DNA from: Pseudomonadota bacterium
GTDB lineage: Bacteria; Pseudomonadota; Gammaproteobacteria; Pseudomonadales; Pseudohongiellaceae
DNA: 64,000 nucleotides
NCBI GenBank assembly: GCA_027592275.1
Contig: JAQCKF010000018.1
Span: 1-64,000 of the forward strand
Reading direction: 5' to 3'
This document shows, piece after piece, positions 7,809 through 55,314 of this stretch. A program made the position numbers and the translations under genes. Position 1 is the stretch's first letter. Each line of letters starts with the position of its first letter. The notes under the pieces were generated by a model that saw only the letters and a list, made by a program, of their open reading frames with translations, was not told the DNA's origin and ran no database searches.

Positions 7809-8261
7809 CTCTCATCACTCCAATAGATATTTCGACCGAGTCAGTGTCAGCTCATCATGACATTAGTAGGAAATTACGTTAACGCGCTGTATCAATGACC
7901 CACGATACAAAAAGCATGAGTTGCTACCGCGATTCCCAGTATTGCACCCGCTAGTTCCGACTTAATCATGTCCTCTATTCTCTACCTCACTTATACAGAC
8001 CGCGATTTACTGCCTATTCAATTTTGCGCGAATTCTAACATTCACGCACATTTACAAATACAGAACACAGGGATAGGAGGGAGTTAGATCAGCTAAGACG
8101 AAATTACTAGCGCGCCAAAGAGCCGTATTAGCAGGAATATCCATCAACTTTTTGTCAGTTATCTGTTCTAATCATCCAATATCATTCCATCAGATACGAA
8201 AAGTAGTTTGGCGGACACCAGAGTACCCGTGCATCAAATGACACAACACTAGGAGCAACCC
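7809..8261. other. 453-bp intergenic region between divergent genes
   Basis: This spacer should hold the promoters of the cytochrome c'-like gene (minus) and the secreted hydrolase gene (plus). I found no convincing pair of -35/-10 boxes. The only coding-like content is a 25-codon ORF on the minus strand at 7892-7969. Its predicted peptide is hydrophobic (MIKSELAGAILGIAVATHAF and five more residues), with an AGAGG-like sequence only two bases from the ATG. It may be a small membrane protein or chance. Confidence 0.4.
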
Positions 8262-9203: not shown

Positions 9204-9283
9204 CGCTCAAAAAGCAGATTTGATCGATAGCGGCGAACAAAACGCTATATTTTCACCATGAGATACTATTTTTTTTTGGCTGA

Positions 9284-9805
9284 TATAAGCAAAAAATTGG
9301 GCCTAATGAGAGACAAAAACTGCAGTTCTTAACCTCACTGAGCCAGAAAGCAGCCAAACTCCCACTATCGAAGGTGGCCCTGGACAGCGGTAAAACCTCC
9401 TCAAAAATCCTAAGCGTAGGCGGCCTTGATGCGCTCGAAAGCCGGGCACTGGATTGGCGATGACTGCTGAGAATTTTGAATCCTGCCGGTTCAATTATTA
9501 AAAATATGTTATATAACAAATAGTTACAGTTATTTGAAAAAGCTCTGCGGGATGATGTTCGCAGAGATGGTGTCGAACATGCGGATTATCTGTTTCTGCC
9601 AGGAGCATCACTACAGTGCTTTCAATAGCTCAATGGAGTTTTCGCTGAAGGGACGCTAGAGGTGAAGACAGCAGGCTCTAGCCAACTGCAGCGGGTGATA
9701 TTCACGAAATCGGGTAAAGTGACCTAACGCTTTAGTCGCTGGCGTGAAGGTCAACACCTCTATGAATTTAGCTTAGAAGACTTTACACTGTCGCCTCAGG
9801 TCTGA
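9284..9805 (+). pseudogene. Eroded ORF of unknown family
   Basis: Two stretches look like protein but are broken. Block 1 (9284-9463) is open for 59 codons without a good start and reads QKLQFLTSLSQKAAKLPLSK and onward. Block 2 (9524-9805) is one frame of 93 codons interrupted only by TAG at 9626 and TAA at 9725, each one change from a Gln codon. It includes ALRDDVRRDGVEHADYLFLP and FSRWREGQHLYEFSLEDF. The rest of the 779-bp gap (to 9982) holds the leader of the cold-shock gene. I do not recognise the family. Coding origin is inference from composition and the pattern of stops. Confidence 0.4.
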
Positions 9806-9982
9806 AATGGTGAAATGGGCCTGAGTCACTCTATCGAGTCATTGTATGAAAATGCTTCGTCTAGATAGAGAGATAGCAGAGAACGAAGTTTCGCCACAGA
9901 GCAGAAGAAGAATCGTAAACAGGTTCCTATTTCGCAATTATGCACGTTAAAGAGCAATATATTTTTATATATCGAGGGTTAC

Positions 9983-10189
9983 ATGAGTAAAGGTACAGTT
10001 AAGTGGTTTAATGCAGATAAAGGTTTCGGTTTCATCACTCCAGCGGAAGGTGGTAACGATCTATTCGTTCACTACTCAGAAATTAAAAGTGACGGCGGTT
10101 TCGCCACGCTAAATGATGGCCAAGAAGTAGAGTACGAAGTTGGGCAAGGTCAGAAAGGACCTTGTGCAAACAAAGTAGTCCCTCTCTAA
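9983..10189 (+). CDS. Cold-shock protein, CspA family
   Basis: 68 residues forming one cold-shock OB-fold. It has the RNA-binding motifs KGFGFI (RNP1) and LFVHY (RNP2), begins [14 protein letters not shown] and ends near [10 protein letters not shown]. It binds single-stranded RNA or DNA as an RNA chaperone. GAGG lies six bases before the ATG, and a strong terminator follows 25 bp after the stop. It is one of two csp genes in the window. Whether it is cold-induced or constitutive cannot be told. Confidence 0.95.
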
Positions 10190-10214
10190 GTACTGCCAGA
10201 TAAGCTTTAAATAA

Positions 10215-10248
10215 GCTCCCGACCCTTCGCGGTCGGGAGCCTAGTTTT
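10215..10248 (+). terminator. Rho-independent terminator of the first csp gene
   Basis: A perfect 10-bp GC-rich stem GCTCCCGACC/GGTCGGGAGC (10215-10224 with 10231-10240) closes on a CTTCGC loop. It is followed by CTAGTTTTT. Confidence 0.92.
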
Positions 10249-10443
10249 TGCCCTTCCCCAATCTCCTATCCTCTTATTGCTTCCGGCAATAGGTGTATAT
10301 TGTTCTGCTGTGCCCAACATTTCTCAATCTGAAACTAGTTCCAAGCTAGGCTGTCAAATTCCTAGACTGCGACTCACTCTGCCTGCCACAAAAGCGCAGG
10401 CGATAAGCGGCAACCCCCTCTTACTCTTTGATAGAAGCTAGCA

Positions 10444-10963
10444 ATGAAAAAAATTCCTCTATACCTGTTTGTATTACTCTTTTCCGGTAGCGTATTCGCT
10501 CATGCGACCATCGGCATAGCCATTTCAATGAGGCCCTGTTTACTACCGAAGCGTGGAAGCAGCAGGCAGAACAATTGGAATCAGTGCTCGGCGACGATCA
10601 ATCCGCCGCGGATTCGCTGAGACAAGAAGTGCTGGACCTGCAAGAGAAGCTTCAGGTGAATATGCCAACTCTTACAAGCACCGAGATGCAGCGCATCCAA
10701 GAAGAGGCCCAGTTCAAGCAATTGAAATTTCAACAAATCGGTGAGCGCGTACAAAGCAAGCTCAGAGCAGCCAGAATCAGTTCTTAGAACGTTATCGCAG
10801 TCTACTAGGCGAAGCTCTCAATGAAGTCTATACCGAGGGTGGCTACGATTCTATACTTCGATCTGACAGTATTGCGACATCCGATTTAAACTATAATGTG
10901 ACCTCCGAAGTCACCGCGAAGCTCAATGAGCTAATAGCTGACCTGAGTGCAGCAGCACAATAG
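10444..10963 (+). pseudogene. OmpH/Skp-family periplasmic chaperone-like gene, frameshifted twice
   Basis: Three reading frames must be joined to give one OmpH-like protein. Part 1 starts at ATG 10444 with a signal peptide (MKKIPLYLFVLLFSGSVFAH). Part 2 reads FNEALFTTEAWKQQAEQLES and a coiled-coil helix. Part 3 reads QNQFLERYRSLLGEALNEVY, EGGYDSILRS and finally VTSEVTAKLNELIADL. This is the order expected in Skp/OmpH: signal, helical arm, return arm with the conserved EGGYD. The shifts lie near 10520 and near 10765. A true Skp usually sits beside bamA; this is a paralogue. The frame breaks suggest decay, though sequence error is possible for either one. Confidence 0.7.
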
Positions 10964-10993
10964 AACAATAGAACAATAGAACAATAGAACAAT
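10959..10993 (+). repeat. 8-bp tandem repeat, 4.4 copies
   Basis: The unit AATAGAAC is repeated four times plus AAT, beginning in the last codon of the broken OmpH-like gene and ending five bases before the cupin gene start. All copies are identical. Each unit contains an in-frame TAG, TAG or similar stop in turn. The repeat sits where the cupin gene's ribosome-binding site should be and contains no Shine-Dalgarno match. Confidence 0.9.
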
Positions 10994-10998
10994 CCACT

Positions 10999-11358
10999 AT
11001 GATTAAGAAACACGATTCCAACGATGAGTATTATTTCGAGGAAGGTTGCCACATTATCGAAACTTCTAACTCCGCAGATGACGAAGATGTCTCGATAGCT
11101 CAGGCAAGAGTTGAAAAGGGTCAACGAACGAAGTGGCATTACTTGGAGAACACTACTGAGCGCTACGTGATCTTGTCCGGTTGCGGCTCAGTCGAGGTAG
11201 GGACGGAAGAACCTTGCGATATCACAACAGGTGACGTGGTAATAGTCCCAGCGAATACCCGCCAGCGAATCAAGAATACCGGCGAGAATGATTTACTGTT
11301 TCTAGCGATCTGCTCTCCCCGGTTTCAGAAAAAGAACTACCGCAAGGGTTCAATTTAA
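10999..11358 (+). CDS. Small cupin-domain protein
   Basis: 119 residues forming a single cupin barrel. It has the first cupin motif region around GQRTKWHYLENTTERYVILS, where H and E match metal ligands, and the second motif as GDVVIVPANTRQRIKNTG. In motif 2 the usual metal-binding His is replaced (PANTRQRI in place of P-x-x-x-x-H). Related proteins include mannose-6-phosphate isomerase-like cupins. The substrate is unknown. No clear ribosome-binding site is seen, because an 8-bp tandem repeat occupies that position. Confidence 0.75.
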   Translation: MIKKHDSNDEYYFEEGCHIIETSNSADDEDVSIAQARVEKGQRTKWHYLENTTERYVILSGCGSVEVGTEEPCDITTGDVVIVPANTRQRIKNTGENDLLFLAICSPRFQKKNYRKGSI

Positions 11359-11369
11359 GCGCCTATTTT

Positions 11370-11390
11370 GGCGCTAATTAGCGCCCTTTA
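11370..11390 (+). terminator. Possible terminator of the cupin gene
   Basis: A perfect 16-bp palindrome GGCGCTAATTAGCGCC (11370-11385) lies 12 bp after the stop and is followed by CTTTA. An overlapping alternative stem AGCGCC/GGCGCT also exists. The T-run is poor. Confidence 0.4.
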
Positions 11391-11417
11391 GTGCACCGCT
11401 GTATGACCGAAAAACCC

Positions 11418-11445
11418 TTGACAGCCAAAGGTTTACCTGTAAAAT
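11418..11445 (+). promoter_or_regulatory. Sigma-70 promoter of the second csp gene
   Basis: TTGACA (11418-11423), a 16-bp spacer and TAAAAT (11440-11445) form a near-consensus promoter. It implies a leader of about 140 nt before the csp start codon, as is typical for cspA-type mRNAs whose leader controls cold-induced translation. Confidence 0.75.
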
Positions 11446-11593
11446 GCGCCTAGCTTGAAAGTAAGCAACTATTTATTCTCCCCATTTCGAAGTCTTCTCA
11501 GTAACACCTCGTCATTAAGTTTATAAGTACGCCGAATTTCTAGCACGACCCCTGCTATGCAGGATTACTACATTTAAAATTTAGGTAACAAAA

Positions 11594-11803
11594 ATGTCTG
11601 AGAAAATTACTGGTACAGTGAAATGGTTTAACGAGAATAAGGGTTTCGGCTTCATCGAACGTGAAGGCGGCCCTGACGTATTTGCACATTTCAGTGCAAT
11701 TCAAAGCGCTGGTTACAAGACTCTTGCTGAAGGTCAGCGCGTTGAGTTCATAGTAACTGATGGTCAGAAAGGACCACAGGCTGAAGAAATCGTCGCTGTT
11801 TAA
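11594..11803 (+). CDS. Cold-shock protein, CspA family
   Basis: 69 residues with one cold-shock domain: [16 protein letters not shown] (RNP1 included), VFAHF (RNP2), and a C-terminus [10 protein letters not shown]. It is clearly a paralogue of the csp gene at 9983 but diverged in the second half. It has its own near-consensus promoter, a leader of about 140 nt, and a terminator after the stop. Long leaders in this family often fold to regulate translation with temperature; that role here is inference. Confidence 0.95.
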
Positions 11804-11863
11804 ATCTAAAATCGCCCCAGCTAGCGCGCGCCGCTAGCAACGCGAATTAGATTTGAGAAGTAG

Positions 11864-11896
11864 AAAGGGCAATTCCGCGAGGATTTGCCTTTTTTA
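11864..11896 (+). terminator. Rho-independent terminator of the second csp gene
   Basis: Stem GGCAA/TTGCC, a T-T mismatch, then TCC/GGA closes on a GCGA tetraloop. It is flanked by AAA and followed by a run of T from 11890. A second hairpin without a T-run (GCTAGCG/CGCTAGC) lies just upstream near 11821. Confidence 0.8.
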
Positions 11897-11977
11897 GTTT
11901 AAGATGACCTAGAAAACTAAACTACCTGATACAACGTAGTAGACTGAAATAGCTTTGAGAGAACTAAAGAGCGCCCA

Positions 11978-12541
11978 ATGACACTATTCGAATTTCTAAT
12001 GGCACTGGCATCGGTAGTAATCGCTATAGCCCTGACGGAGATCTTCGCAGGCTGGGGACGGTTGTTGCGCACACACATCGTGCCGAGAATAGATTGGCTA
12101 CACTTGGGATGGTCACTCGTTATCGTACTGTATGCGATTCAGTATTGGGTCGGAATCTGGCCCTATCGCGAGATAGAATTCACGCTTATTTACCAAGTGT
12201 GGTTCTTGATATTCCCTACTCTGTTTATTGTTCTCGTCTCCTACGCAATTACTCCAGACGTTGATCCGGACACGAGCCTCGATCTCCGTGACTACTATAT
12301 GTCGCGCCGCGCTCCAGTGTTCATTGGCCTTGCCGTATTTTTAACAACTGCGCAACTGGCGGATGTCATTATTCTAGATATAAGCCTCGGCTGGGAAAGC
12401 CTCTCATTAGTAATCATAGCTTTGCTTCCAGCCTTCACTCAGCGAATTAGCATTCATACCACCGTAATGGTTTTCAATCTGTATTTCATACTTGCAAATG
12501 GTTTCGGACTCAATCCAGCAGGTAACGGACTAATTAACTAA
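11978..12541 (+). CDS. Multi-pass membrane protein of unknown function
   Basis: 187 residues with about six hydrophobic segments and no signal peptide. It begins MTLFEFLMALASVVIAIALT, with a short loop GWGRLLRTHIVPRIDW after the first segment. A Trp-rich second region (QYWVGIWPYREIEF) follows. I do not recognise a family by motif. The arrangement resembles small uncharacterised integral membrane proteins with an EIFAGWGR-like motif after the first helix. It is followed after 88 bp by the YtkA-like/MauG-like pair on the same strand, so linked expression is possible. Confidence 0.6.
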   Translation: MTLFEFLMALASVVIAIALTEIFAGWGRLLRTHIVPRIDWLHLGWSLVIVLYAIQYWVGIWPYREIEFTLIYQVWFLIFPTLFIVLVSYAITPDVDPDTSLDLRDYYMSRRAPVFIGLAVFLTTAQLADVIILDISLGWESLSLVIIALLPAFTQRISIHTTVMVFNLYFILANGFGLNPAGNGLIN

Positions 12542-43545: not shown

Positions 43546-44835
43546 TCACTCTGAAATACTAAGAAATTCAGCAAGTTTATCGCCGCAATTTGCTATCTCG
43601 ACGCTGACCGAGTCAGCGGAATCATTTAAAGGGCGAATTTTGACTGTTTCCAGAGGCTGTCCCGATTCAGTTTCCAATACAATAGCCAGCCGCGCCCCGC
43701 TGTTGAATGCGCGTTTCATTTGATTACTGGATTTTCCCCCACCGCAGTGACTGATAAGGCCTAGTTCAGGAAATTGCTGCCGCAGCTGCTTGGCTAACAA
43801 CTGGGCCGGGCCGGCCAACTCGCTACCGACAACCACCATATACACATCGATTACCTGCGAGGTGGCTTCGGGAATCTTGCCAAGAGAATCGAGCATCAAG
43901 ACAAGCCTTTCGACACCCATCGCAAAACCAGCCGCAACCGTAGGTTTGCCCCCGAGCTGCTCAACGAGGCCATCGTAGCGACCTCCTCCGCAGACTGTAC
44001 CCTGTGCGCCCAAAGAATCGGTAGTCCACTCAAACACACAGTTATTGTAGTAATCCAAACCCCTTACCAGGCGGGGGCTCTCGACGAACTCAATTCCAAC
44101 CTGGCTAAGCAGGCTCTTCAGCTCACTATAGTGAGCGATACTCTCATCGCTGACGTAATCAACCAGAGCAGGCGCATTCTTCAGAGCTTCCTGAACGGCG
44201 GGGTTCTTACTATCGAGTACCCGCATTGGGTTACTGTGCATTCGATTGCGCGCATCATCATCGAGTTCGTCTGCATGGAAAGCTAGAAATGCTGATAAGG
44301 CGGCGGCATAGCGTTTTCTATCTTCCGCGGAGCCGATGTTGTTAATCTCTAGGGTGAGGAATTTTTCTAAGCCTAGGTCTAACCACAGAGAAGCGCTGAC
44401 CTGAATCACCTCTGCATCGATGTCCGGTCCAGCCATGCCAAAGGCCTCTACACCGAACTGTTGAAACTGTCGGTAGCGGCCCTTCTGCGGCCTTTCATGG
44501 CGAAACATTGGGCCCTGGTACCACAGTCGTTGCTGCTGATTGAATAGTAAACCGTGCTGATCGGCAGCACGAACGCAACCGGCCGTGCCTTCTGGACGCA
44601 AACTCAAGTTATCGCCATTGCGATCGTCGAAACTGTACATCTCCTTCTCGACGATGTCAGTGACCTCCCCAATTGAACGCTTAAACAGTTGTGTCTGCTC
44701 GAGAATAGGGAAACGAATTTCCCGATAGCCATAACGATGCACTACCTGCTGAAAACACTTTTCAACATATTGCCAGTTTGGAGTTTGATCAGGAAGTATG
44801 TCATTCATACCTCGAATTGCTTGTAATTTCGCCAT
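43546..44835 (-). CDS. hisS: Histidyl-tRNA synthetase
   Basis: 429 residues, class II synthetase. Motif 1 region begins [10 protein letters not shown], motif 2 is [23 protein letters not shown], shown here only in part as [15 protein letters not shown], and the HisA-like motif [12 protein letters not shown] is present. The C-terminal anticodon-binding domain (about 330-429) includes [16 protein letters not shown]. It charges tRNA-His in the cytosol. It is 17 bp downstream of ispG in the core block. Confidence 0.98.
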
Positions 44836-44852
44836 AGATTTGTGACTGATCG

Positions 44853-45965
44853 CTAGCTTGAGGCGATTAGGTTTTCTTCCATTTTCTTCTTTTCGGCAAC
44901 GCGCTGACGCACCATCGCCTCCAATTCATCCACAAGATTTTCATTATTTATCTTGTGATCGGGAACGCCTTCTCTGTAGACGAGATTACTTGGACTCGCA
45001 CCAGTCAACCCAATCTCAGCAACCTTCGCCTCGCCCGGGCCATTCACGATACAGCCAATGACTGCCACATCAATCGGTGTAGTTATGTCTTCTAATCGGG
45101 ACTCTAATTCATTAACCACGGAGATCACGTCGAAATTCTGCCTGCTACAACTAGGGCAAGCTACTAAATTGACACCCTTATGACGAAGGCCAAGGCTCTT
45201 TAGTATATCGAATCCAACTTTAACCTCTTCGACCGGGTCAGCTGCGAGGGAGACACGGATTGTATCGCCAATCCCATCCATCAACATAGCTCCCAGGCCG
45301 ATAGCCGATTTAACTGTGCCGGAACGAAGGCCGCCTGCCTCAGTGATGCCGAGATGGAAAGGCTGATCTATCTGTGTCGCTAAACTCCGATAGGCCGCCA
45401 GGGTCATAAATATCTCGGAGGCTTTCAGGCTAATTTTAAAATTTTGAAAATCGAGCTTGTCGAGTATATCTATCTGCGTCAGCGCAGACTCAACCATTGC
45501 CTCGGAATTGGGCTCCTTGTATTTTCGCAACAAGTTCTTCCCAAGAGAACCTGCATTTACGCCGATTCGAAGCGGTATATTCTTGTCTTTGGCACTATCT
45601 ACAACGGCGCGAATGCGCTCCTCGCTACCGATATTACCCGGATTGATGCGCAGACAATCAACCCCATTCTCAAGCACTTTCAAGGCAATGCGATAGTCGA
45701 AATGTATGTCGGCGACTAGGGGCACTTCCACTTGCGAGCGAATCTTCTTAAAGGCTTCTGCCGCATCCATGCTGGGTACGGAGACGCGAACGATATCCAC
45801 TCCCGCATTTACCATGCGATTAATCTGGCCTAGTGTCGCCTCAACATCGCAAGTCTCGGTGTTGGTCATGCTCTGCACGGAAATTGGTGCATCGCCGCCC
45901 ACAGGAACATTGCCGACCATAATCTGGCGAGTCTTACGACGAATAATTGATGAGTTAGTCTTCAT
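44853..45965 (-). CDS. ispG: 4-hydroxy-3-methylbut-2-enyl diphosphate synthase
   Basis: 370 residues. It catalyses the penultimate step of the MEP isoprenoid pathway with a [4Fe-4S] cluster. The N-terminal TIM-barrel begins with [13 protein letters not shown] and [10 protein letters not shown]. The cluster ligands are CPSC in [12 protein letters not shown] and the Cys of CIVNGPGEA. It needs Fe-S supply, of interest because the isc operon in this window is incomplete. It lies three bases downstream of rodZ. Confidence 0.98.
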
Positions 45966-45968
45966 GGG

Positions 45969-47063
45969 TTACAAGCCTACAGTGAGGCGTGCCGAGTTGT
46001 CGATTCGAATATCAGCAGAGAGGTCAATTTCATCGCCGTTGAGGCTCATACTAATAAAGGGAGCATCGCCTAACAAGACATTGAATGGCGCACTGCCAGT
46101 AATTTCAAGCACATCGCCTCCTTCACGGATATCGCGATAGATCTGCTGAGATTCGCTGTCATTAACTTCAACCCAACTCTCTCCGGTGAAACTGATTCGT
46201 AGAATATCGTCCCCTACCTCTCCTACGCTGATCACTTGAAGCTGCTCGATATCGGCAATTAGCTCTGCGTTCGCTGCTTGCTCTACTCTCAAAGCTTCTA
46301 GCGTAACAACTAATTCTTCTATGCTAGGCCCTCCTTCGGACCCTCTATTCTCATCGCTTTCAACAACCTCCCCGCCTTGAGCATCCACAATGGATCCCGA
46401 ATCTGCTTCGAGCAACTGCTCAGGAGCAACCACTGCCTCTGTTACCGAAGGCGGGATTATCATCGGCTGGCGGGCTGGGACCGAGGTTTCCTCTGTCTCA
46501 ACTTCCAGAGTAAGTTGCGGCTGCGTCGTTAGCTGTTGCTCAACAACCTGAGACAAAGCCGGCCTAAGATTCTCGGCAGCACCAACAGATTCAGCGGCAC
46601 TAGGCACATCAGAAACAGACTCCTCACCAAAGTAGCTATTCGCAAGCCACAACCCCAAAAAGCCGACGACAAATACCATTAAGGAAACAATTACCAAAGG
46701 CTTGTTACGGTTTTTTTTCTTGCGCACTCTTAACAGTCGTCTCTCTTCCGCGCTGTCGGCATTCTGCTGATGTGTAAATTCATCATAGCGGGACGTTAGG
46801 TCTTCAACATCCAAACCCAACAATAAGGCGTAGTTCTTCAGATATCCCTTGGCGAAAACAGAGCTAGGTAGCTTTTCATAGCTATTGGATTCCAAAGCCT
46901 TAACGTAGTGCCTGGTGATATGCAGTTTATCGGCGACTTCTTTCTCATTCAGACCCAGACGCTGCCGCTCCTGCTGGAGAATATCTCCTGCTGTCAGGGC
47001 GTCAACCGATTGCTCTGTGGCCTCAAGCTCGGCGGCCGGCTCAATCAGCGGCTCAATTGTCAT
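45969..47063 (-). CDS. rodZ: RodZ-like cytoskeletal membrane protein
   Basis: 364 residues. The N-terminal HTH (about 28-95) includes RQRLGLNEKEVADKLHITRH. A basic linker RVRKKKNRNKPL leads to a membrane helix (about 124-145). A long acidic, proline- and glutamate-rich periplasmic segment follows, then the C-terminal RodZ/DUF4115 domain (about 275-360, ESWVEVNDSESQQIYRDIR-like). RodZ links MreB to the cell wall machinery. It overlaps pilW by 11 bp. Confidence 0.9.
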   Translation of the reverse strand: MTIEPLIEPAAELEATEQSVDALTAGDILQQERQRLGLNEKEVADKLHITRHYVKALESNSYEKLPSSVFAKGYLKNYALLLGLDVEDLTSRYDEFTHQQNADSAEERRLLRVRKKKNRNKPLVIVSLMVFVVGFLGLWLANSYFGEESVSDVPSAAESVGAAENLRPALSQVVEQQLTTQPQLTLEVETEETSVPARQPMIIPPSVTEAVVAPEQLLEADSGSIVDAQGGEVVESDENRGSEGGPSIEELVVTLEALRVEQAANAELIADIEQLQVISVGEVGDDILRISFTGESWVEVNDSESQQIYRDIREGGDVLEITGSAPFNVLLGDAPFISMSLNGDEIDLSADIRIDNSARLTVGL

Positions 47064-47874
47064 CGCTTAGCCTTTGAAACGTCTGAAATTCCGGTGAAGT
47101 CGGGTAAAGAGTCGTAAGAACCAAAGAAAAATTCTCGACAAGCTCTGCGTTCTGGAAGTAACCTTCAATTTGAATACCAGCCAATAGCGCTCGCGGCGTA
47201 TACGGTAATTGCAGAAACGCAATAGTGGTCAAATAGGTTTGATAATATTGACGAGCGAGTGGGTAGTCTTCCTGATCGAAATAGACCAAAGCTAATTCAA
47301 GTGGCGCTATAAAAAGATTCTCATTGAGCTGCAGCGCGCGTTGAAATGCAGCCTTTGCGTCCTCCTGCCTGCCCAATCGCAAAGCACTTCTGCCCAGACC
47401 TTCGAAGACAAGCGATCGCCCTTCATAGCTGGTATCACTCGCTACTCTTTCCAATTGCTCATAGGATTCGCGAAAGCGCTCTTGCGAGAACAGCATCGCC
47501 GCGTAATTATTTCGCGCACGGGAATTGTCCTGGTCAAGACTGATCGCTCGTAGAAAATTCGAATCGGCCAAATCTAAATCACCTTCACGCTGAAAAACCA
47601 TCGCCAACACCATATAGCCATCAGAGATTCGATTATCGATATCGAGAGCATTATTCACGTGGCGCCGAGCACCGGGCATGTCGTTATTGTCCAAATAAGC
47701 TAACGCAAGTTGGATATAGTCACTAGCAGCTCGCTCTTTGGAAGCATCCACCATGAAGCCCCCAGTCGTTGAAGTCACGCAGGAAGACAGCATGCTTGAT
47801 ATCAGTAGTACGGCGAGCACTGAGGCTAGCTTTTTGCTGAGTAATTTTCCAAATCCTAATTCGAGAAATAACAT
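47053..47874 (-). CDS. pilW: Type IV pilus assembly lipoprotein PilW/PilF
   Basis: 273 residues. The signal ends in a lipobox with Cys32 (LSSC). TPR repeats follow: AYLDNNDMPGARRHVNNALD, VFQREGDLDLADSNFLRAIS and onwards. PilW/PilF pilotins help the PilQ secretin form in the outer membrane. It lies between rlmN and rodZ, the normal place of pilF. No other pilus genes are in the window. Confidence 0.9.
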   Translation of the reverse strand: MLFLELGFGKLLSKKLASVLAVLLISSMLSSCVTSTTGGFMVDASKERAASDYIQLALAYLDNNDMPGARRHVNNALDIDNRISDGYMVLAMVFQREGDLDLADSNFLRAISLDQDNSRARNNYAAMLFSQERFRESYEQLERVASDTSYEGRSLVFEGLGRSALRLGRQEDAKAAFQRALQLNENLFIAPLELALVYFDQEDYPLARQYYQTYLTTIAFLQLPYTPRALLAGIQIEGYFQNAELVENFSLVLTTLYPTSPEFQTFQRLSDDN

Positions 47875-47925
47875 GATTTGTAACCAATACCTAGTTGCAC
47901 AGGACGATCTGGTTTATTCAGGGCT

Positions 47926-49113
47926 TTACAGTCTGTCGGCAGTTACAGCTAGATTATCAGTACTGCCGAACACTTTAGCGCCATCTTTTTTGGCTAATTC
48001 GCTCTCAGCGTGGCGGCGCTTGTGCCTCTCGCTGCGACGGGTCTGATCCTCTACATCACCTACTAGCTGGCCGCAAGCCGCCCCAATATCATCCCCACGA
48101 GTAGTACGCACAGTCACCGTGTATCCAGCTTTTTGCAATATCTGCCTAAAATTGGTAACCGAAGATGAGCTAGGACGACGGTAATCGCTGAGTGAGAATG
48201 GGTTGAAAGGTATTATATTTATCTTGCAGGGAAGCTGTTCCAACAGTACCGCGAGCTCACGAGCATGCTGACGATGATCGTTCACACCTGCGATCATCGT
48301 ATACTCGATAACTGGAACTCGCTTATCTGACAAGCTATCCATATAGCCCTGCACAGACCGAAGCACTTCCTTGATAGGGTATTTGTTGTTGATCGGCATG
48401 ATCTGACTGCGCAGCTCATCATTAGGCGCATGCAAGGAGATAGCCAGCGATGCGTCCGTGTAGTCCTTCAATCTATCGATCGCGGGAACAACACCCGATG
48501 TGCTAATTGTCACCTTGCGTTTCGACAAGCCGTAGGCGCAATCGTCCATCATGATACTTAGCGCGTCCATGACGTGATCGAAGTTCAGCAGTGGCTCGCC
48601 CATCCCCATCATCACTACGTTGCTGACTCGCTGTTCCGCTTTATCTTCGAAAACACCTAGGTGATAATTTGCCCACCACAGCTGACCGGCAATTTCCGCC
48701 ACTGTCAGATTGCTATTGAAGCCTTGCTTACCCGTCGCGCAGAACGAACAATCCAGTGAACATCCTGCCTGGGAGGATATGCAGAGAGTGCCACGCCTCG
48801 CTTCAGGAATAAAAACCATTTCGACATGACTGCCGCTGGTGACTTCCACAATCCACTTACGAGTGCCGTCTTCAGATTTGAAGTCTTCCAGAATTTTAGG
48901 GAGAGATATTTCTGCAGTTTGCTTGAGCTTCTCGCGAAGGTCCTTGCTGATATCTGTCATGACATCGATATCGAGCACTCCGCGCTGATGAATCCATTTC
49001 AGAATTTGCTCGGCGCGAAAGGGCTTCTCGCCCATGTCAGCAAACAACGCCCGCAGCTTTGCCCTACTTAGGCCAGCCAAATTGGGTTTGTGTGTCGCCG
49101 TCATGTTCAACAT
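47926..49113 (-). CDS. rlmN: Dual-specificity rRNA/tRNA m2A methyltransferase RlmN
   Basis: 395 residues, radical SAM enzyme that methylates A2503 of 23S rRNA and A37 of certain tRNAs. The cluster motif is C118-x3-C122-x2-C125 in AGCSLDCSFCATGKQG. The catalytic Cys of the C-terminal part is in GDDIGAACGQL. NVVMMGMGEPLLNFDHV is a family signature. A later in-frame ATG at 49104 is also possible. It is 33 bp downstream of ndk. Confidence 0.97.
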   Translation of the reverse strand: MLNMTATHKPNLAGLSRAKLRALFADMGEKPFRAEQILKWIHQRGVLDIDVMTDISKDLREKLKQTAEISLPKILEDFKSEDGTRKWIVEVTSGSHVEMVFIPEARRGTLCISSQAGCSLDCSFCATGKQGFNSNLTVAEIAGQLWWANYHLGVFEDKAEQRVSNVVMMGMGEPLLNFDHVMDALSIMMDDCAYGLSKRKVTISTSGVVPAIDRLKDYTDASLAISLHAPNDELRSQIMPINNKYPIKEVLRSVQGYMDSLSDKRVPVIEYTMIAGVNDHRQHARELAVLLEQLPCKINIIPFNPFSLSDYRRPSSSSVTNFRQILQKAGYTVTVRTTRGDDIGAACGQLVGDVEDQTRRSERHKRRHAESELAKKDGAKVFGSTDNLAVTADRL

Positions 49114-49146
49114 ATCCTCTTCAGGAGCTTTGCTTTAGGATTAAAC

Positions 49147-49557
49147 TTAGTTGTCGCTGAAGAAATAACCGACTTCGCGTGCTGCCGACGTTGTTGAATC
49201 GGACCCGTGGACTGCGTTGGCATCTATAGAGACTGCGAAATCGGCGCGAATCGTGCCTGCCGCTGCATCTGCCGGATTCGTGGCTCCCATCAGGTCGCGG
49301 TTCATCATAACGGCGCCCTCGCCTTCCAGAACCGTTACCATGACCGGTCCGGACGTCATAAATTCGATAAGGTCTTTGTAGAAGGGCCTTTCCTTGTGTT
49401 CAGCATAAAAGCCGCCGGCGGATTCGTCGTCTAATTGCAGCATTTTTGCAGCAACAATCTTCAACCCAGCTTTCTCGAAGCGGGTATAAATTTCGCCAAT
49501 AACGTTCTTCGCTACTGCATCAGGCTTGATTATGGATAAAGTACGTTCAATCGCCAT
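49147..49557 (-). CDS. ndk: Nucleoside diphosphate kinase
   Basis: 136 residues, slightly shorter than E. coli Ndk. It balances nucleotide triphosphates by phosphate transfer through His117 in the signature [23 protein letters not shown] begins it. It heads the rlmN-pilW-rodZ-ispG-hisS run and has its own -10 element. In many gammaproteobacteria it follows iscX; here it follows an eroded iscX. Confidence 0.98.
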
Positions 49558-49595
49558 TTTAACTCCAAATGTAGGGTGAATTCTTGAGAGCGCGC

Positions 49596-49601
49596 ATTAT
49601 A
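49596..49601 (-). promoter_or_regulatory. Probable ndk -10 element
   Basis: On the minus strand TATAAT lies 39-44 bases before the ndk ATG, with GC-rich flanks. The -35 is weak. Its presence would let ndk be expressed independently of the iscRS genes upstream. Confidence 0.5.
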
Positions 49602-49679
49602 CGCGGTATATCTGGGATTAATACGCTTTTAATGAATAAAAACGCTATTTTTCAGTAGCTTAATCAGCCGCTCCTTCAT

Positions 49680-49845
49680 CTAGGCAGCCTGTATTACTTC
49701 TAGGATTTTCTCGCGAGCGCGCCCGAGATCAGCGTCGAACTCATCCAGGGCTAGCACCGACTGTCTCAGATCAGAGAAACAGACTTATTGGGGGTCGATG
49801 TCGAGAATTGACTACTGCATTCTATGACTAGGACGAGTCGCTCAA
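49680..49845 (-). pseudogene. iscX: Eroded iscX
   Basis: In one frame the sequence reads DIDPQ, stop, V-C-FSDLRQSVLALDEFDADLG, then RAREKILEVIQAA and stop. The E. coli IscX equivalent is DLDP..VRFTDMH..., ending NEKILEAI. The conserved F-x-D-L, F-D-x-D and EKILE-x-I positions line up without gaps. Upstream, TR is kept but the first helix is lost, with another stop at TAG. An in-frame TAA (49785-49787) splits the conserved part. No start codon remains. The rest of the 328-bp ndk-iscS spacer is non-coding; iscU, iscA, hscB, hscA and fdx are absent. Confidence 0.72.
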
Positions 49846-49885
49846 GTCAGATGTTTAAGCTCTCTCACATCGAGACTCGCTAGGT

Positions 49886-51100
49886 TTAGCGAGCGGCCCG
49901 TTTAACTTGATTTAAGGCGACACTTTCTTTGTAGATATCCCACTGCGGGGAGGATTCTCTTAGCTTGCCTACGGCTTCGCGTATCTTTCCTATCGAGTAG
50001 TCAACTTCTTCAACCGTAGTGAAACGACCAATAGAAATTCTAAGTGAACTGTGTGCCATTTCGTCATTTAGTCCAATGGCACGCAGCACATAGGACGGCT
50101 CGAGGCTCGCAGAGGTGCAGGCAGACCCCGAAGAGACTGCCAGGTCTCGTAGCGCCATCATCAGCGATTCACCCTCAACGAATTTGAAACTAACATTTAG
50201 GTTATTGACAACGCGATGCTCGATATCCCCGTTGACGAACACTTCTTCCATGTCATCGAAGCAATTTAGCAGACGAGCGCGCAGGGCCAACAAGCGTGTA
50301 TTTTCATCAACCATCTCTTCTTTGGCGAGACGGTAAGCCTCACCCATTCCTACAATCTGATGTGTAGCCAAGGTGCCGGAGCGCATGCCCTGCTCATGAC
50401 CGCCGCCATGGATCTGCGGCTCGATGCGAACGCGCGGCTTACGGCAAACATACAAGGCGCCAATGCCTTTGGGGCCATACACCTTATGGGCCGTTAAAGA
50501 CATTAGGTCTACCTGCATCGATTCCATATCTATATCGATTTTTCCTGTGCTCTGAGCCGCATCCACATGAAAAATAATCTCTTTCTCGCGAGTTACTTTG
50601 CCAATAGCGGCGATGTCGTTAATTACCCCGATCTCATTGTTCACGTGCATCAATGAAACGAGTGTAGTATTAGGGCGAATTGCGGCAGCGACCGCTTCTG
50701 GTGTGATTATCCCTGCTTCTGTCGGCTCCAAGTAGGTCACTTCGAAGCCTTCGCACTCCAACTGGCCGCAGCTGTCTAGCACCGCTTTATGTTCGATCTT
50801 GGAGGTGATTATATGCTTGCCCTTCTTTACATAAAAATGGGCAGCACCCTTGATAGCCAGATTGTCGGCCTCGGTTGCGCCCGAAGTCCACACTATCTCG
50901 CGAGGATCACAGTTGATCAGGTCAGCCACTTGGCGGCGTGCCGTTTCTACAGCTTCCTCCGCCTTCCAGCCGAACATATGCGACCGTGAAGCTGGGTTGC
51001 CGAAGTTTGTATCTAGAGTTAGGCACTCTGCCATTTTTGCCGCTACGCGCGGATCTACCGGGGTAGTTGCGGAATAATCTAGATAAATTGGAAGTTGCAT
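49886..51100 (-). CDS. iscS: Cysteine desulfurase IscS
   Basis: 404 residues from ATG 51100 ([18 protein letters not shown]), the E. coli IscS length; longer starts upstream overlap iscR. The PLP Lys206 is in [12 protein letters not shown] and the sulfur-transfer Cys328 in [12 protein letters not shown], both at the same numbers as in E. coli. The C-terminal [13 protein letters not shown] is complete, so the IscU-docking tail appears present. It is 22 bp downstream of iscR. The genes that normally follow (iscU, iscA, hscB, hscA, fdx) are missing here. IscS may still serve tRNA thiolation. Confidence 0.98.
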
Positions 51101-51122
51101 TAATTGCTCCACTACTACCGGT

Positions 51123-51614
51123 CTATATGCTTGACGCCAAAATCCGGCTGTCTTCTGCATGCTCGCTAACAATTAGGTGTTTCCGATCCTGCTTCTCGGA
51201 AATCCGTTTTACCTCACTCTTCGCCACCAGATCGGCAAGGCTGATACCCTCTAGAAAGGTATGAATCTGTTCACTGAGATCTTCCCACAGATAGTGCGTA
51301 AGACAGGTTTCGCCACCCTGGCAATCACCTGCTCCCTTGCACTTCGTCGAATCGAGGGACTCATTCACGGCATCCACGATCTGAGCGATGAAGATCGACT
51401 CGGAACCACCTTGCAGCTCATAGCCTCCACCTGGGCCACGCACACTGCTCACTAATGAGCCGCGGCGTAACTTAGCAAACAACTGCTCTAGATAAGATAG
51501 AGAAATTGCCTGCCGCTGAGATATATCAGCAAGACTCACCGGCCCTTGATCCTTATGCAGAGCCAAGTCCAGCATTGCCGTTACCGCGTACCTACCCTTT
51601 GTCGTCAAGCGCAT
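51123..51614 (-). CDS. iscR: Fe-S cluster-sensing regulator IscR
   Basis: 163 residues, Rrf2 family. The winged-helix DNA-binding part starts [20 protein letters not shown]. The cluster ligands Cys92, Cys98 and Cys104 in [20 protein letters not shown] are at E. coli positions. It binds type 1 sites as [2Fe-2S] form and represses its own operon. A near-consensus type 1 IscR site overlaps the -35 of its promoter, so autoregulation appears kept. Confidence 0.97.
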
Positions 51615-51648
51615 GGGAAGCCCTTTAGATGCCTAATAAATACTGAGA

Positions 51649-51681
51649 AGTATCGAATACCTAAGTAAATTAGTCAACTAT
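51649..51681 (-). promoter_or_regulatory. iscR promoter with a type 1 IscR-binding site
   Basis: On the minus strand -35 TTGACT (51672-51677), a 17-bp spacer and -10 GATACT (51649-51654) precede iscR by 35 bases. A 25-bp stretch (51657-51681) agrees by eye with the type 1 IscR consensus at 23 of 25 positions: it starts ATAGTTGACT and ends AGGTAT. The site covers the -35, as in E. coli. Confidence 0.75.
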
Positions 51682-51803
51682 ATGGCCAGGCTTCTAATCT
51701 AGCGGAATAGCCGGTGCTAGCACTCCATCCACCTATAACTAGCGGGATCAATGCTATCGTGACGCTCGCCAATTAATGCTGTATAGGGTGCTAAGAGGGA
51801 ATA

Positions 51804-52358
51804 CTAGGCTCGTTCGTAGGCGATCGTGGACGGTGCCTTGCCGAAATCGCTGTCCATTTGATAACCGAAAGACTTCGCGAGCAGGGCAATTATGGCGAGA
51901 TGATGAATGCTGTGGGTGATAAGCCCCATTAATTCTCGTTCTAGGGTGCTATTGATTTCAACAGCGGGACTGGAGGACAGCACGGATTCCTTGACGCCGA
52001 TGAGCTCGCTGCAAAATGGCAACGAGCGTAGCTGCTCAATTCGCCGAGCAACAGACTCCAACGCGAACATTGCCGCCTCCACGTTCTGCTCAATCTCTGG
52101 ATCGCGCTTACGCGCATCGTAATCGATTGAAGCGCCTGCAAGTCCTGCAAAGAAGCAATGAAATCTGTCGAGGATATGTCGAACATGCGCACCAATCGAA
52201 GAGCTACCTTTGGAGTCATCGGTGAAATTCTCTTGGAGTATGATGCTTAGAATTTGATCGCATTGTGCGATGCAGTTAGCACATCCACCGATCAAGAGTG
52301 ACTTAGAATCTTCATCTTCGAGTCCTGCGAATCGCTGCTCTATTTCGGTGTGCGTCAT
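51804..52358 (-). CDS. DinB-like four-helix protein
   Basis: From ATG 52358 (184 residues) it begins MTHTEIEQRFAGLEDEDSKS. The DinB/YfiT-type metal-binding His are suggested by IGAHVRHILDRFHCFF and, late, GLITHSIHHLAIIALLAKS. A longer ATG at 52454 would add 32 residues, including a hydrophobic stretch not typical of the family. Members are often metal-dependent thiol transferases; no function is known here. It is a single gene near the 267-bp inverted-repeat element. Confidence 0.7.
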   Translation of the reverse strand: MTHTEIEQRFAGLEDEDSKSLLIGGCANCIAQCDQILSIILQENFTDDSKGSSSIGAHVRHILDRFHCFFAGLAGASIDYDARKRDPEIEQNVEAAMFALESVARRIEQLRSLPFCSELIGVKESVLSSSPAVEINSTLERELMGLITHSIHHLAIIALLAKSFGYQMDSDFGKAPSTIAYERA

Positions 52359-52645
52359 TGGTTTACTATTACCACCTATTGAGAAGCCGCTGACCAACAC
52401 ATCGAAACAAACAGGCAGTCTCGAGCAGCTTTGTGAATATAGCATAGCAGCCAATTAGCTACTATGGAGTAGACGGAGATGCCGACTTGAGTGAATCCAT
52501 CGACCACAACCCTTAAGACCATGTTGGGTGCTTTTTTATTGCATTACCGTGATCTCTTTATCGGTATTCCTATAGAATACCCTAGCCTGCTTCGAATAGA
52601 CTGAGCAGCCCCTTGCCGATGTGTTCCACCAAATCATAGTAATCT

Positions 52646-52912
52646 AAGGAGCCTCTTATTAACTATATGACTACTCTGGCCGACACCCGGCTTCGCTATC
52701 GAGGCGCAAGTTTGCAGACATGCGTCGGCCTGTCAAAAAATTGCAACGAAGAGAGCGAAGTCGGGTGTCGGCCCCTTCGGGCGGGGCCTGACGCGCGCCG
52801 CCGCTTCGTTGTCCTGCTTGCCAAGGGCGCTGACCATTGCCTGCGCATAACGCCTCGCAGCAGCGCGCGACAGACTCCCGCAGAGTAGCCATATAATTAA
52901 TAAGAGGCTCCT
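52646..52912. mobile_element. 267-bp MITE-like element with 31-bp terminal inverted repeats
   Basis: Left arm 52646-52676 and right arm 52882-52912 are inverted copies matching at 29 of 31 bases. Inside is a second 20-bp inverted repeat (52677-52696 with 52754-52773, one mismatch) and a GGCCCC/GGGGCC stem at 52770-52788. The interior is much richer in GC than the flanks, unlike the neighbouring genes. No transposase is coded. Open frames on both strands reflect the symmetry only. The right arm carries AAGAGG, eight bases before the rnm start codon, so it may supply that gene's ribosome-binding site. No target duplication is clear. The rest of the 52359-52915 gap holds nothing else I can name. 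Confidence 0.75.
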
Positions 52913-52915
52913 AAA

Positions 52916-53749
52916 ATGAAAGTCGATTTACACTGCCATAGCCATTTCTCAGACGGTACGCAATCACCCTCTTTTCTATTGCAACGTGCAACAGAAAATA
53001 AGCTTACCCATCTCGCGCTTACCGATCACGACTGTATCGATGGATTAGAATCTTTGCAGCGTGATGCGGGCGACATAACCATCATCAATGGTGTAGAGCT
53101 CTCCTGCCTATGGGGCACCATGGAGATTCACATCGTCGGGCTGTTCATCGACCCCACGAGTGATCACATAGAAAAACTGTTAGCGGCACAGCAGGCCCAG
53201 AGGGAAAATCGTGCGCAAGCCATCGATAGAAATTTACAAAAAATTGGCATACATGGACTCATGTCTTATTTACAATCGCTGCCTTGCACCGCCTATACTC
53301 GGAGTCACATTGCAGACTTTCTTGTGCAAGAAAAAATCTGTAAGAATAAACAGAAGGCCTTTAAGACGCATCTCGGAAAGCGCGGCAGAGTCTATGCCGC
53401 GGCAAACTGTTGCACCCTAAACGAGGGGGTAGCTGCGATTCTTGATGCCTCAGGCATAGCCGTAGTCGCTCACCCTGGCCGTTATTCGCTAAGCAAGACC
53501 AAGCTAAGCTCGCTACTCGACGATTTCAAAGCATGTGGCGGAGAAGCTATCGAGGGAAGCTATTCGAATATAGACCCAACTACGAAAGCCTATCTGAGCA
53601 GGCTGGCTGAAGAAAAATCACTTTATTTATCAGTAGGTTCCGACTTCCATGACGCCGCAGCTACTTGGACGGACATCGGGAAGTTTCCTGCCCTTGATCA
53701 GCAGGCAATAAAAAATGCCATTTGGTTGCACCCCAAATGGCATTCTTAA
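52916..53749 (+). CDS. rnm: PHP-domain phosphoesterase, RNase AM (YciV/TrpH)
   Basis: 277 residues. The PHP metal motifs are DLHCHSHFSDGTQSP, LTDHDCIDG, and VAHPGRYSLS, with a late SVGSDFHDAAATW. The pattern fits the YciV/TrpH family: E. coli RNase AM trims 5' ends of rRNA precursors with 5'-3' exonuclease activity; some relatives hydrolyse pAp. Its start lies four bases beyond the inverted-repeat element, whose right arm has the AAGAGG ribosome-binding site. The 3' end folds into a terminator-like hairpin. Confidence 0.85.
   Translation: MKVDLHCHSHFSDGTQSPSFLLQRATENKLTHLALTDHDCIDGLESLQRDAGDITIINGVELSCLWGTMEIHIVGLFIDPTSDHIEKLLAAQQAQRENRAQAIDRNLQKIGIHGLMSYLQSLPCTAYTRSHIADFLVQEKICKNKQKAFKTHLGKRGRVYAAANCCTLNEGVAAILDASGIAVVAHPGRYSLSKTKLSSLLDDFKACGGEAIEGSYSNIDPTTKAYLSRLAEEKSLYLSVGSDFHDAAATWTDIGKFPALDQQAIKNAIWLHPKWHS
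53714..53744. terminator. Bidirectional terminator inside the 3' end of rnm
   Basis: A perfect 12-bp stem AATGCCATTTGG/CCAAATGGCATT has a 7-base loop and ends three bases before the rnm stop. On the minus strand it is followed by TTTTATT, so it is a good terminator for the convergent zinc-ribbon gene. On the plus strand it is followed by CTTAATT. Confidence 0.8.
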
Positions 53750-53831
53750 TTATCTTAACTTTTACGTGCGATTGAGCGGGAGTAACTTACTCGCCTACCT
53801 AGCAACCTACCCAGCCACTATTTGGCTTGAA

Positions 53832-54224
53832 CTACTTTTGCCTTCGCGTAATTTTTGCCACCACATCACGAAAAACATCCATCAAAGTTTCATGCTTGAA
53901 ATCGGTGAATTCACCAGCGTCCATGAACACACCGTGCTCCTCACAGGCCTCGTACTCTAAGTGCGTTTGCTTAGGGTCATTTAGTTTAACCATCGTCTTG
54001 CCGCAGCGAGGGCAGTCAATATCCCGCACGGTATTGTAGGTCTTACCTACTTCTCGATCACCACTGTCGGCAAAGTCCGCCATCCAGTAACCCTTCAGCT
54101 GCTCTGCCTCGCCGTTGTCAAACCACAGGCCCTGACAGCTATTGCATTTATCTATCACTACTTTGCCATGCAGCGTCTCAATCTTGAGCTCTTGCATCTC
54201 GGAGTTACATTTCGGGCAGTCCAT
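53832..54224 (-). CDS. Zinc-ribbon protein (zf-TFIIB family)
   Basis: 130 residues with two zinc-ribbon-like modules. The first is Cys3, Cys6, Cys27 and Cys30 in MDCPKCNSEM and KCNSCQGLWFDNGEAEQL, the typical zf-TFIIB pattern with the LWFDNGEAEQL tail. The second is Cys71, Cys74, Cys94 and His97, a variant Cys3His. No catalytic part is seen. Function is unknown; roles in nucleic acid binding are guessed for the family. It is convergent with rnm and ends at the bidirectional terminator. Confidence 0.8.
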   Translation of the reverse strand: MDCPKCNSEMQELKIETLHGKVVIDKCNSCQGLWFDNGEAEQLKGYWMADFADSGDREVGKTYNTVRDIDCPRCGKTMVKLNDPKQTHLEYEACEEHGVFMDAGEFTDFKHETLMDVFRDVVAKITRRQK

Positions 54225-54504
54225 CTGGTTCTCCTCAGATACAGCTTCTTATTTTTAGGGCCACTCTTTTTCAGAACCTAGCTCACTAGGTCATTTTGGC
54301 GTGCAGCAAACAACACCTTTGGTCAGAGCCCATATTATAAGGAATTTTCAGCTCAGAGAAAGCCGAAATTCCCTTTTGCCCAGAATCTGCGCGGCATATC
54401 GAGTATTAAGTCAGCGTTCACATTAGAGGCAGTACTATTTGAGAACTTTCGAAACAGTTAGCTTCACAAGAGCAGTACACAAGAACCGAAATAGGAGATA
54501 TACC

Positions 54505-55314
54505 ATGAGACATGCTCGAATTTTAGCCCTATCGCTATTGCTGAGCTTTTCTCCTGCAGCATTAGCGTCAGAAGGCTCCGCAAACGTGAGTAGTGCCTGT
54601 GCAACCCTGGAGTTTATGGGCAAGATGCTGGCGTTGAATACCATGCTACCAGCTGATTGCGACGATGTCGGGGAGATGAACGTCATGGGTGACGCGCTCG
54701 CCGAGCTGAATCAGCTGGCCTGCCAACCGGTAATCTTAACGGGTTACCGCCGCGGTAATAGCTACTATGCAAATGGCTCGTTAATCTCCAATGACCTCTA
54801 CCATCAAGCCTGGTATTTCCCAAATGGGCAGCTGTTTATGGCGGAACCGGGTCTGGATACGACGATTTACTACCCGAACGGCCGGATAATGGCCTATCAC
54901 TGGATGCACGGTGATCAAGCGCTTTTCTGGCCGAATGGAAGCCTGGCCACAAATTATTTCCGTGCCTTCGATGAGACCTGGTACTACCCCGACGGCAATA
55001 TTATTACCTATGAAGCGGGCTATACCGGAGGACGCTGGTTCTATCCTTTCCAACGCCTGGATGGTGGTATTGGCCAAGAGATAATATCCAGCAATTGGGG
55101 GGTCGAAGACGAGGATTTCACCTTCTTAAATTTCACGGCCAGTGGAAGTCTATTCACAGCCAGCGAGAGAATTCGTCGAAAGCTGATATTCGACGACATC
55201 GATCTATTAGATGTACCCGGCGTGCTCTTGTTAATTACGCGCCTGTATCAGGCGTCGGATTCAGCGAAGCAGTTCGCGCCGGCGGATGTGAACATCACTG
55301 GCGCGCCATTTTAG
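54505..55314 (+). CDS. Exported protein with YPNG (YwqK-like) repeats
   Basis: From ATG 54505 (AGGAG upstream) the protein has 269 residues with a signal peptide ending PAALAS; an ATG at 54439 lacks one. The middle (about 80-180) has regularly spaced repeats of an aromatic pair followed by PNG or PDG: YYANGSLISN, WYFPNGQLFM, IYYPNGRIMAYHW, LFWPNGSLATN and WYYPDGNIITYE. Such repeats resemble MORN/YwqK-type antitoxin-like beta repeats. No enzyme motif is seen. It is upstream of and convergent with the coiled-coil gene. Confidence 0.6.
   Translation: MRHARILALSLLLSFSPAALASEGSANVSSACATLEFMGKMLALNTMLPADCDDVGEMNVMGDALAELNQLACQPVILTGYRRGNSYYANGSLISNDLYHQAWYFPNGQLFMAEPGLDTTIYYPNGRIMAYHWMHGDQALFWPNGSLATNYFRAFDETWYYPDGNIITYEAGYTGGRWFYPFQRLDGGIGQEIISSNWGVEDEDFTFLNFTASGSLFTASERIRRKLIFDDIDLLDVPGVLLLITRLYQASDSAKQFAPADVNITGAPF

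Follow-up and report, generated by a model that had tools for sequence, protein, structure and literature searches.

Loss of the ISC core genes beside a retained iscS in a Pseudohongiellaceae genome that carries SUF, with a decaying iscX and eroded partner surfaces on IscS

The isc locus in the window, by which we mean the whole stretch of 64,000 nucleotides analysed here (the first 64 kb of contig C37 of genome G000; 3.2 Mb, 43 contigs, 95.47% complete), consists on the minus strand of iscR, iscS, a 328-bp spacer and ndk. The genes between iscS and iscX are missing, iscX itself is a pseudogene, and a suf operon lies on another contig of the same genome. We consider it very probable that ISC has been lost here with SUF in place, that iscX is decaying, and that the retained IscS is shedding the surfaces that served its former partners.

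Both genes at the head of the operon are intact (Table 1). IscR has 163 residues, including Cys92, Cys98, Cys104 and His107, and scores above the cut-off of TIGR02010 (213.5 bits, cut-off 207.55) and below that of a second IscR model (212.1 bits, cut-off 275). In IscS (404 residues), K206 and C328 are in place, as expected of an ISC-system desulfurase. A preliminary description of the window had reported intact iscR and iscS with C92/C98/C104, K206 and C328 and a spacer of 328 bp before ndk (49558-49885), and all of this was confirmed. RlmN and IspG, encoded in the same window, each require a 4Fe-4S cluster. A DinB-like gene (51804-52454; PF05163, E 1.5e-5) adjoins iscR; only pieces of it were matched in G002, G013 and G023. 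An Rfam scan of positions 44000-55000 of the window gave no matches.

Table 1 Features of the isc locus in the window and of the broken iscU loci in another family
Feature	Position	Strand	Remarks
ispG	44859..45965	-	TIGR00612 above cut-off
rlmN	47926..49113	-	TIGR00048 above cut-off
ndk	49147..49557	-	next gene of the ancestral order; NCBIfam NF001908 above cut-off
iscX pseudogene	49659..49825	-	lacks its 5' part; stops TAA and TAG in frame; in the DNA alignment to G017, the TAG is followed by a 1-base gap
iscA scrap	49828..49880	-	aligns with the iscA 3' end and the bases behind it
iscS	49886..51100	-	intact cysteine desulfurase; TIGR02006 695.4 bits, cut-off 643.2
iscS codons 376-404	49889..49975	-	eroded IscU-docking tail
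iscR	51123..51614	-	intact regulator with [2Fe-2S] ligands; PF02082 E 2.1e-37
IscR type-1-like site upstream of iscR	51657..51681	.	23 of 25 consensus positions
Broken iscU and iscX piece	L259 (G233) 6447-10950; L261 (G281) 7771-12266		G092 loci: L263, L264

The spacer holds traces of two isc genes. With each stop codon read as X, a minus-strand frame matches IscX (PF04384) at 42.1 bits (cut-off 25, E 1.5e-10) over profile positions 18-62 of 64, and a genome-wide search recovered the remnant at the same place with one TAG and one TAA. The earlier reading of this frame as an IscX without a start and with two in-frame stops was therefore upheld; no intact open frame remains. At the DNA level, the spacer aligns with the iscX-ndk stretch of congener G017 with a score of 320, far above chance (30 shuffles, none above 34). 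The window iscX differs from that of G017 at 11, 16 and 21 of 59, 60 and 60 sites by codon position, compared with 6, 4 and 21 of 66 each for the intact iscX of G020; the bias towards the third position is lost and the gene is decaying. The TAG falls on the identical Trp codon in the window, L192, L193 and L240, and the TAA is common to the window and L193. In G008 and G013 the remnant is stop-free and its N-terminal part is missing.

The second trace is a scrap of iscA between iscS and the iscX remnant. Against the iscA 3' end of G017 it scored 40, which none of 300 shuffles reached; with G020, G011 and G003, which are more distant, the match lies mostly within chance (G020: 34 of 300 shuffles). 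It begins at the identical G017 base in 6 of 6 clade members tested, where 0 (window), 0 (G008), 2 (G013), 9 (L192), 0 (L193) and 0 (L209) of 300 shuffles reached its score. A protein search of the spacer (locus L149, E 1e-3) found no piece of iscU, iscA, hscB, hscA or fdx. Because the scrap survives in this position, at least two deletions must have occurred, and a single clean deletion without other trace is ruled out. The preliminary description had proposed a deletion of about 4.5 kb that removed scaffold, carriers and chaperones, and had named a decaying iscX as what is kept. The loss and the decay stand, whereas the missing DNA, measured against the intact operons of G020 and G011, amounts to about 3.7 kb in total and iscX is not the sole remnant.

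A search of the whole genome for the IscU family (PF01592) returned no match, the same search being positive in 12 of 14 control genomes. No IscA was found in the isc locus beyond the scrap; the three A-type matches of the genome lie elsewhere, on C27, in the suf operon on C38 and in a 199-aa frame on C6. A joined HscB-HscA-Fdx query gave no HscB match in G000, its best HscA match being a 41% identical chaperone and its best Fdx match 34% identical. Contig C38 carries a seven-gene suf operon in the order sufBCDS-A-T-E. SufB (TIGR01980), SufC (TIGR01978), SufD (TIGR01981) and SufS (TIGR01979) exceed their cut-offs, as does SufT for its NCBIfam model; the SufE-like protein is named by its best match (121.9 bits, below the cut-off of 160), and the A-type protein of the operon matches SufA best, at 120.1 bits and below the cut-off of 136.2. 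The core ISC genes are thus absent both at the locus and by search, and SUF, suspected from the outset as the substitute supplier, is present. SufS itself (L041 6943-8193) has its top NCBIfam score against the model of family 2A encapsulin cargo desulfurases (604 bits, cut-off 800), scores lower against the SufS subfamily model, and lacks the N-terminal 216 positions of the encapsulin cargo model.

Upstream of sufB, we observed a palindrome that agrees with the type-1 IscR consensus at 24 of 25 positions in G000 and G013 and at 25 of 25 in G007. As a background, 300 stretches of 270 bp were drawn at random from the window, and one of them reached 20 positions; the best matches near suf in G233, G281 and G092 reached 21-22. 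No iscR was found beside the suf operons of G000, G013 and G007. The site in front of sufB may explain why iscR was retained, in that IscR probably controls suf in trans.

Comparison of the gap between iscS and ndk in relatives, whose gene names are labels carried over by homology, revealed the full operon at the same site in congeners and the window's junction in related assemblies. Congener G011 has iscRSUA-hscBA-fdx-iscX-ndk-rlmN-pilW-rodZ-ispG-hisS, and other congeners likewise. In 4 of the 38 genomes of the relatives set (G000, G007, G008 and G013), iscRS, an iscX remnant and ndk are kept. Another four (G002, G010, G014 and G023) keep iscR, iscS and ndk without a detected iscX, and in each of them a second iscR precedes suf. 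In G010, the iscR beside iscS (L122 10170-10382) is badly diverged (43% over residues 1-67) and the copy preceding suf is intact. In G142, an integrase-like frame (L174 5640-7071, about 300 codons) separates iscS from ndk; it occupies the former place of the isc genes and, from its look, is presumably a tyrosine recombinase.

In a second collection of 51 loci, which includes one OM182 and one Pseudohongiella record, iscU lies behind iscS in 43 and is lacking there in 7 (L192, L193, L199, L209, L237, L238 and L240), L242 being cut. Of the iscU-less loci, all retain an iscX match except L193, which has none at E 1e-3; L199, L237 and L238 were taken as contigs of G008, G007 and G013. G008 has the iscX remnant and no SUF match in an assembly that is 65% complete. 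iscS was not found in G005 and G006, both of which carry suf. The iscS genes of two clade members are frame-shifted at different places, in G013 (L043 about 7330) and in L240 (after codon 249), by assembly error or by real decay.

Three genomes needed a decision on class. G002 combines an IscU match with an eroded IscS tail; it was counted as IscU-less because its IscU frame (L050 4068-4463; 131 aa, 73% to the IscU of G011) lies outside the isc operon, on contig C104 among phage-like proteins. The replication genes there are, from the look of the neighbours, presumably T4-like, and something similar to this frame occurs in 17 of 50,697 phage records. In G041, which has IscU and no full-length IscS, iscS is cut by the contig start and its tail is normal. 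G004 was kept as ISC-bearing despite the lack of an IscU match, because hscB-hscA-fdx-iscX-ndk stands at a contig edge.

In a genus tree of 30 genomes built from ndk, rlmN, ispG, hisS and pilW, and not from iscS, G000, G008 and G013 nest with the ISC-bearing G017 (support 100) and then with G020 (100). G007 falls outside this group, clade B (G002, G005, G010, G014 and G023) forms one group (100), and G142 stands apart; the split of G000, G008 and G013 from G017 has a support of only 51, and deeper nodes within the genus are weakly supported. From this placement of the IscU-less genomes it follows that at least four lineages of one genus have lost ISC. Across 292 genomes of the order (at least 95% complete, a sample drawn from a larger group), 122 have IscU without SUF, 4 have both, and 165 have SUF without a typical IscU, among them 12 with a long NifU and 10 with weak or broken matches; in the remaining one (G062) IscU is split over contigs. 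In another family, G233 (a single contig) and its congener G281 carry iscR, iscS, a broken iscU and an iscX piece together with suf. The broken iscU comprises the first 69 of 128 residues, with a stop in both genomes and a frame shift in G281, and the iscX piece (residues 40-62) lies close behind it. Their congener G092 has full ISC and full SUF.

Between G007 and G000, the suf products are 94% (SufB), 91% (SufC), 86% (SufD and SufS) and 81% (SufA and SufE) identical, compared with 77% for HisS, 75% for RlmN and 86% for IspG and Ndk. For G013 and G000, the suf proteins are 89-99% identical and HisS, RlmN, IspG and Ndk 94-96%. SufD is 89% identical to that of G000 in G013, 86% in G007 and 35-39% in the other genomes compared. 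These values suggest, without proving it, that suf moved laterally. Compared with HisS and RlmN, the suf blocks of G007 and G000 (L045 and L041) resemble each other more closely, which does not hold for every gene in comparison with IspG and Ndk; both blocks adjoin the same ydiU neighbour.

The retained IscS carries its own record of the loss. IscU contacts the C-terminal helix 379-391 of IscS, and for IscS lacking residues 376-404 the available text of the same study gives no IscU binding and its table "Low" (PMC2854127). In IscU-bearing congeners IscS usually ends in LSPLWDMYKDGVDL..V.WAAH, and the end in the window differs. Among 14 IscU-bearing congeners, 19 columns within 376-404 are invariant; 11 of these 19 are changed in at least two of four IscU-less lineages, against 17 of 243 before residue 376 (p 1.2e-7), and the result persists whichever one of the four lineages is omitted. 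From residue 383 on, a limit chosen, like the tail pattern below, after inspection of the alignment (376-404 being the published limit), 8 of 14 genus-invariant columns are changed in the window, which lacks the typical tail. Counted over the same stretch, 69 of 112 cells are changed in 8 IscU-less congeners, compared with 9 of 154 in 11 IscU-bearing genomes outside the genus; in the core, the latter differ at 12-31 of 248 columns and the former at 5-22.

The tail pattern was then counted in 119 distinct IscS proteins: it is present in 91 of 92 from IscU-bearing loci, which were ranked by their match to a tailed query so that tailed proteins are favoured, in 0 of 25 without IscU (including G002 and two genomes with a long NifU), and in 0 of 2 with a broken iscU. 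In the single IscU-bearing exception, L227, the final residues of the pattern are missing from the frame as read. The count left out L240 and L238 (IscU-less, iscS frame-shifted), L242 (cut), L149 (the window's own gene) and L212, an IscU-bearing locus whose frame-shifted iscS makes the tail unreadable and which is a potential counter-case. Among the best 150 IscS matches listed by score, 130 reach residue 403-404 and 20 stop at 381-384. The tailed proteins belong to 125 IscU genomes, to G062, G281 and G233 (split or broken iscU) and to G000 and G142; 18 of the short ones come from genomes without IscU and 2 from genomes with a long NifU. The IscS proteins of G233 and G281 both carry L386R, that of G233 also H404R, and their basic patch is intact. 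Given that the single mutants L386R and M389R still bind IscU (PMC2854127, Table 3), altered letters in the tail do not prove lost binding. The erosion of the tail is consistent with an IscU-docking surface that is worn down after the loss of IscU.

A second surface, the basic patch, has changed as well. Binding of IscX or CyaY is weakened by changes at R112, R116, R220, R223, R225, G234, R237, A327 and R340 and R39 belongs to the CyaY site, some of these effects having been seen in double mutants (PMC2854127). In the available text of PMC3750173, ferredoxin does not bind IscS R220E/R223E/R225E, binds R112E/R116E more weakly and still binds E334S/R340S; the accessible part of PMC13343975 reports no interaction of ACP with E. 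coli IscS R112E or R116E. The contacts of TusA include W45, E49, D52 and R55, with R220 and R237 at the edge (PMC2854127). Mutants at R116, R220, R223, R237 and R340 in the literature also lower ThiI binding, and R340E lowers TusA binding.

Five of the ten CyaY/IscX sites (R112, R116, R220, R237 and R340) are changed in at least two IscU-less lineages, compared with 12 of the 238 remaining core columns (p 1.7e-4), the patch residues having first been noticed in an unsupervised list before the published set was fixed. R223 is changed in one lineage, and R39, R225, G234 and A327 are unchanged in all four. R220 and R237, which are also TusA contacts, are each changed in two lineages, and the window itself has R220 and Q237. 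Changes at R220, R237 and R340 may also reflect a loss of ThiI. None of W45, E49, E52, R55 and D65 is changed in the four lineages; outside the genus, E49 varies in the IscU-bearing and IscU-less classes alike. Eight genomes of other families (six IscU-less, two with a long NifU) all have R112 and R116 changed, compared with 0 and 2, respectively, of 37 IscU-bearing or broken-iscU loci in the same table, the window's L149 excluded. The residues that appear to have been freed largely agree with the E. coli mutagenesis map of IscS partners. As to why iscS itself was kept, tRNA thiolation through TusA is a candidate reason. Two observations support it: all 38 genomes of the relatives set have a TusA-family match (37 of them over the cut-off), and W45, E52 and R55 are conserved. 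The changes at R220 and R237 in some lineages weaken it.

Considering that the genome is in 43 contigs and 95.47% complete, an unseen iscU on a missing contig is conceivable, and the gap might then reflect an operon broken by assembly or binning. The relatives do have a complete operon, but the junction lies inside one contig, and iscU is missing at the same place in L192, L193, L209 and L240 and in the assemblies of G008, G013 and G007. Moreover, the stops and the iscA scrap are common by descent and the IscS tail is eroded, which makes an artefact extremely improbable. It could also be argued that iscX lives on in a truncated form and has taken up another function, at any rate in G008 and G013: there, the match contains no stop and an open frame of 81 codons keeps the C-terminal half. 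In these remnants, however, the N-terminal part is replaced, a one-base insertion and a one-base deletion alter the middle, and the codon-position bias is weak (13, 11 and 20 of 62, 63 and 62); stops or shifts occur in the window, L192, L193, L240 and G007. A living short iscX is accordingly improbable, and decay of iscX remains the preferred reading.

For IscS, the altered tail might stem from replacement of iscS by a laterally acquired tailless copy instead of lost constraint. The IscU-less genomes read outside the genus carry IscS of 379-387 residues, 58-69% identical, which could be old xenologues. In the window's clade, by contrast, iscS sits between its old neighbours and its product is 87% identical to the IscS of the closest congeners that bear ISC, G017 and G020; against G017, the core has 105 synonymous and 37 non-synonymous codon differences and the tail 7 and 10. 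Replacement is therefore very unlikely, and erosion in place is favoured. IscS might also have a role other than TusA-dependent tRNA thiolation, for example as a helper of SUF or in other sulfur cofactors. Mycobacterium tuberculosis keeps iscS alone beside SUF, its removal having broad effects (PMC10848736), and the TusA contacts R220 and R237 are changed in some lineages. On the other hand, the suf operon has its own SufS and SufE-like protein, none of the four lineages has a change at W45, E49, E52, R55 or D65, and TusA matches are present. We regard such another role as possible, if rather doubtful, and thiolation through TusA as the preferred reason.

Together, these data lead us to propose the following course. 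The lineage would have acquired, probably laterally, a suf operon preceded by an IscR-type site. Once SUF supplied the clusters, two or more deletions (about 3.7 kb together) would have taken away iscU, hscB, hscA, fdx, all but a scrap of iscA, and the 5' end of iscX. iscR would have stayed, probably now controlling suf in trans, and iscS would have stayed, probably feeding sulfur to tRNA thiolation through TusA. The iscX remnant is decaying. The IscS surfaces of the lost partners would have been freed from selection, namely the tail at the C terminus, which served IscU, and the basic patch R112/R116/R220/R223/R237/R340, which served ferredoxin, ACP, CyaY and IscX and in part also ThiI and TusA, with the catalytic core and W45/E52/R55 retained. 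We think it somewhat probable that this course is repeatable, in that an IscR-controlled SUF arrives laterally, the isc middle is deleted, iscX lingers and IscS sheds its partner surfaces but keeps the heart of its TusA face.

Exchanges of this kind are known (PMC10631705, PMC11559095, PMC10848736), and ISC and SUF as a rule exclude each other in bacteria and in Pseudomonadales (PMC10631705, PMC11559095). Compared with the gammaproteobacterial iscRSUA-hscBA-fdx-iscX-ndk operon, the window has the same flanks and order and homologues of iscR, iscS and iscX; iscU, hscB, hscA and fdx are gone, and a scrap of iscA and a pseudogene of iscX are left. M. tuberculosis, in which ISC is cut to iscS beside a complete SUF (PMC10848736), likewise has a lone IscS with SUF, although in the present case remnants, the former neighbours and iscR are still there and some congeners bear ISC. 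The same one-system rule emerges from surveys in which a few species of the Pseudomonas group carry SUF alone (PMC10631705, PMC11559095). As far as their available text goes, these surveys treat presence and absence, whereas here swaps occur within a genus, with remnants and erosion of IscS interfaces. Pseudomonas aeruginosa in which E. coli SUF replaces ISC demonstrates that SUF is able to assume the essential role of ISC; that swap was engineered and brought defects under H2O2 and paraquat (PMC11559095), whereas the present one is natural and fixed. In the open-licence literature searched, we found no graded series from ISC to SUF with matching erosion of IscS interfaces.

The interest lies in a swap caught in progress, in which the loss of partners can be read from IscS. 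Relatives display ISC only, both systems (G092), broken iscU and iscX with a barely touched IscS tail (G233 and G281), an eroded tail together with no more than scraps of iscA and iscX (the window), and IscS without a tail. With several stages of the exchange visible among relatives, the order of events becomes testable. Fe-S assembly is essential, yet entire machineries have been exchanged. The partners of the IscS hub were mapped by mutagenesis in E. coli, and nature has removed sets of them several times; the apparently freed residues include R112 and R116, whose E. coli mutants no longer bound ACP (PMC13343975). If the proposed course is true, genomes of this kind would be natural mutants that map the IscS hub, and the IscS tail would offer a test for a working ISC system from sequence alone, which could give annotators a quick sign of it.
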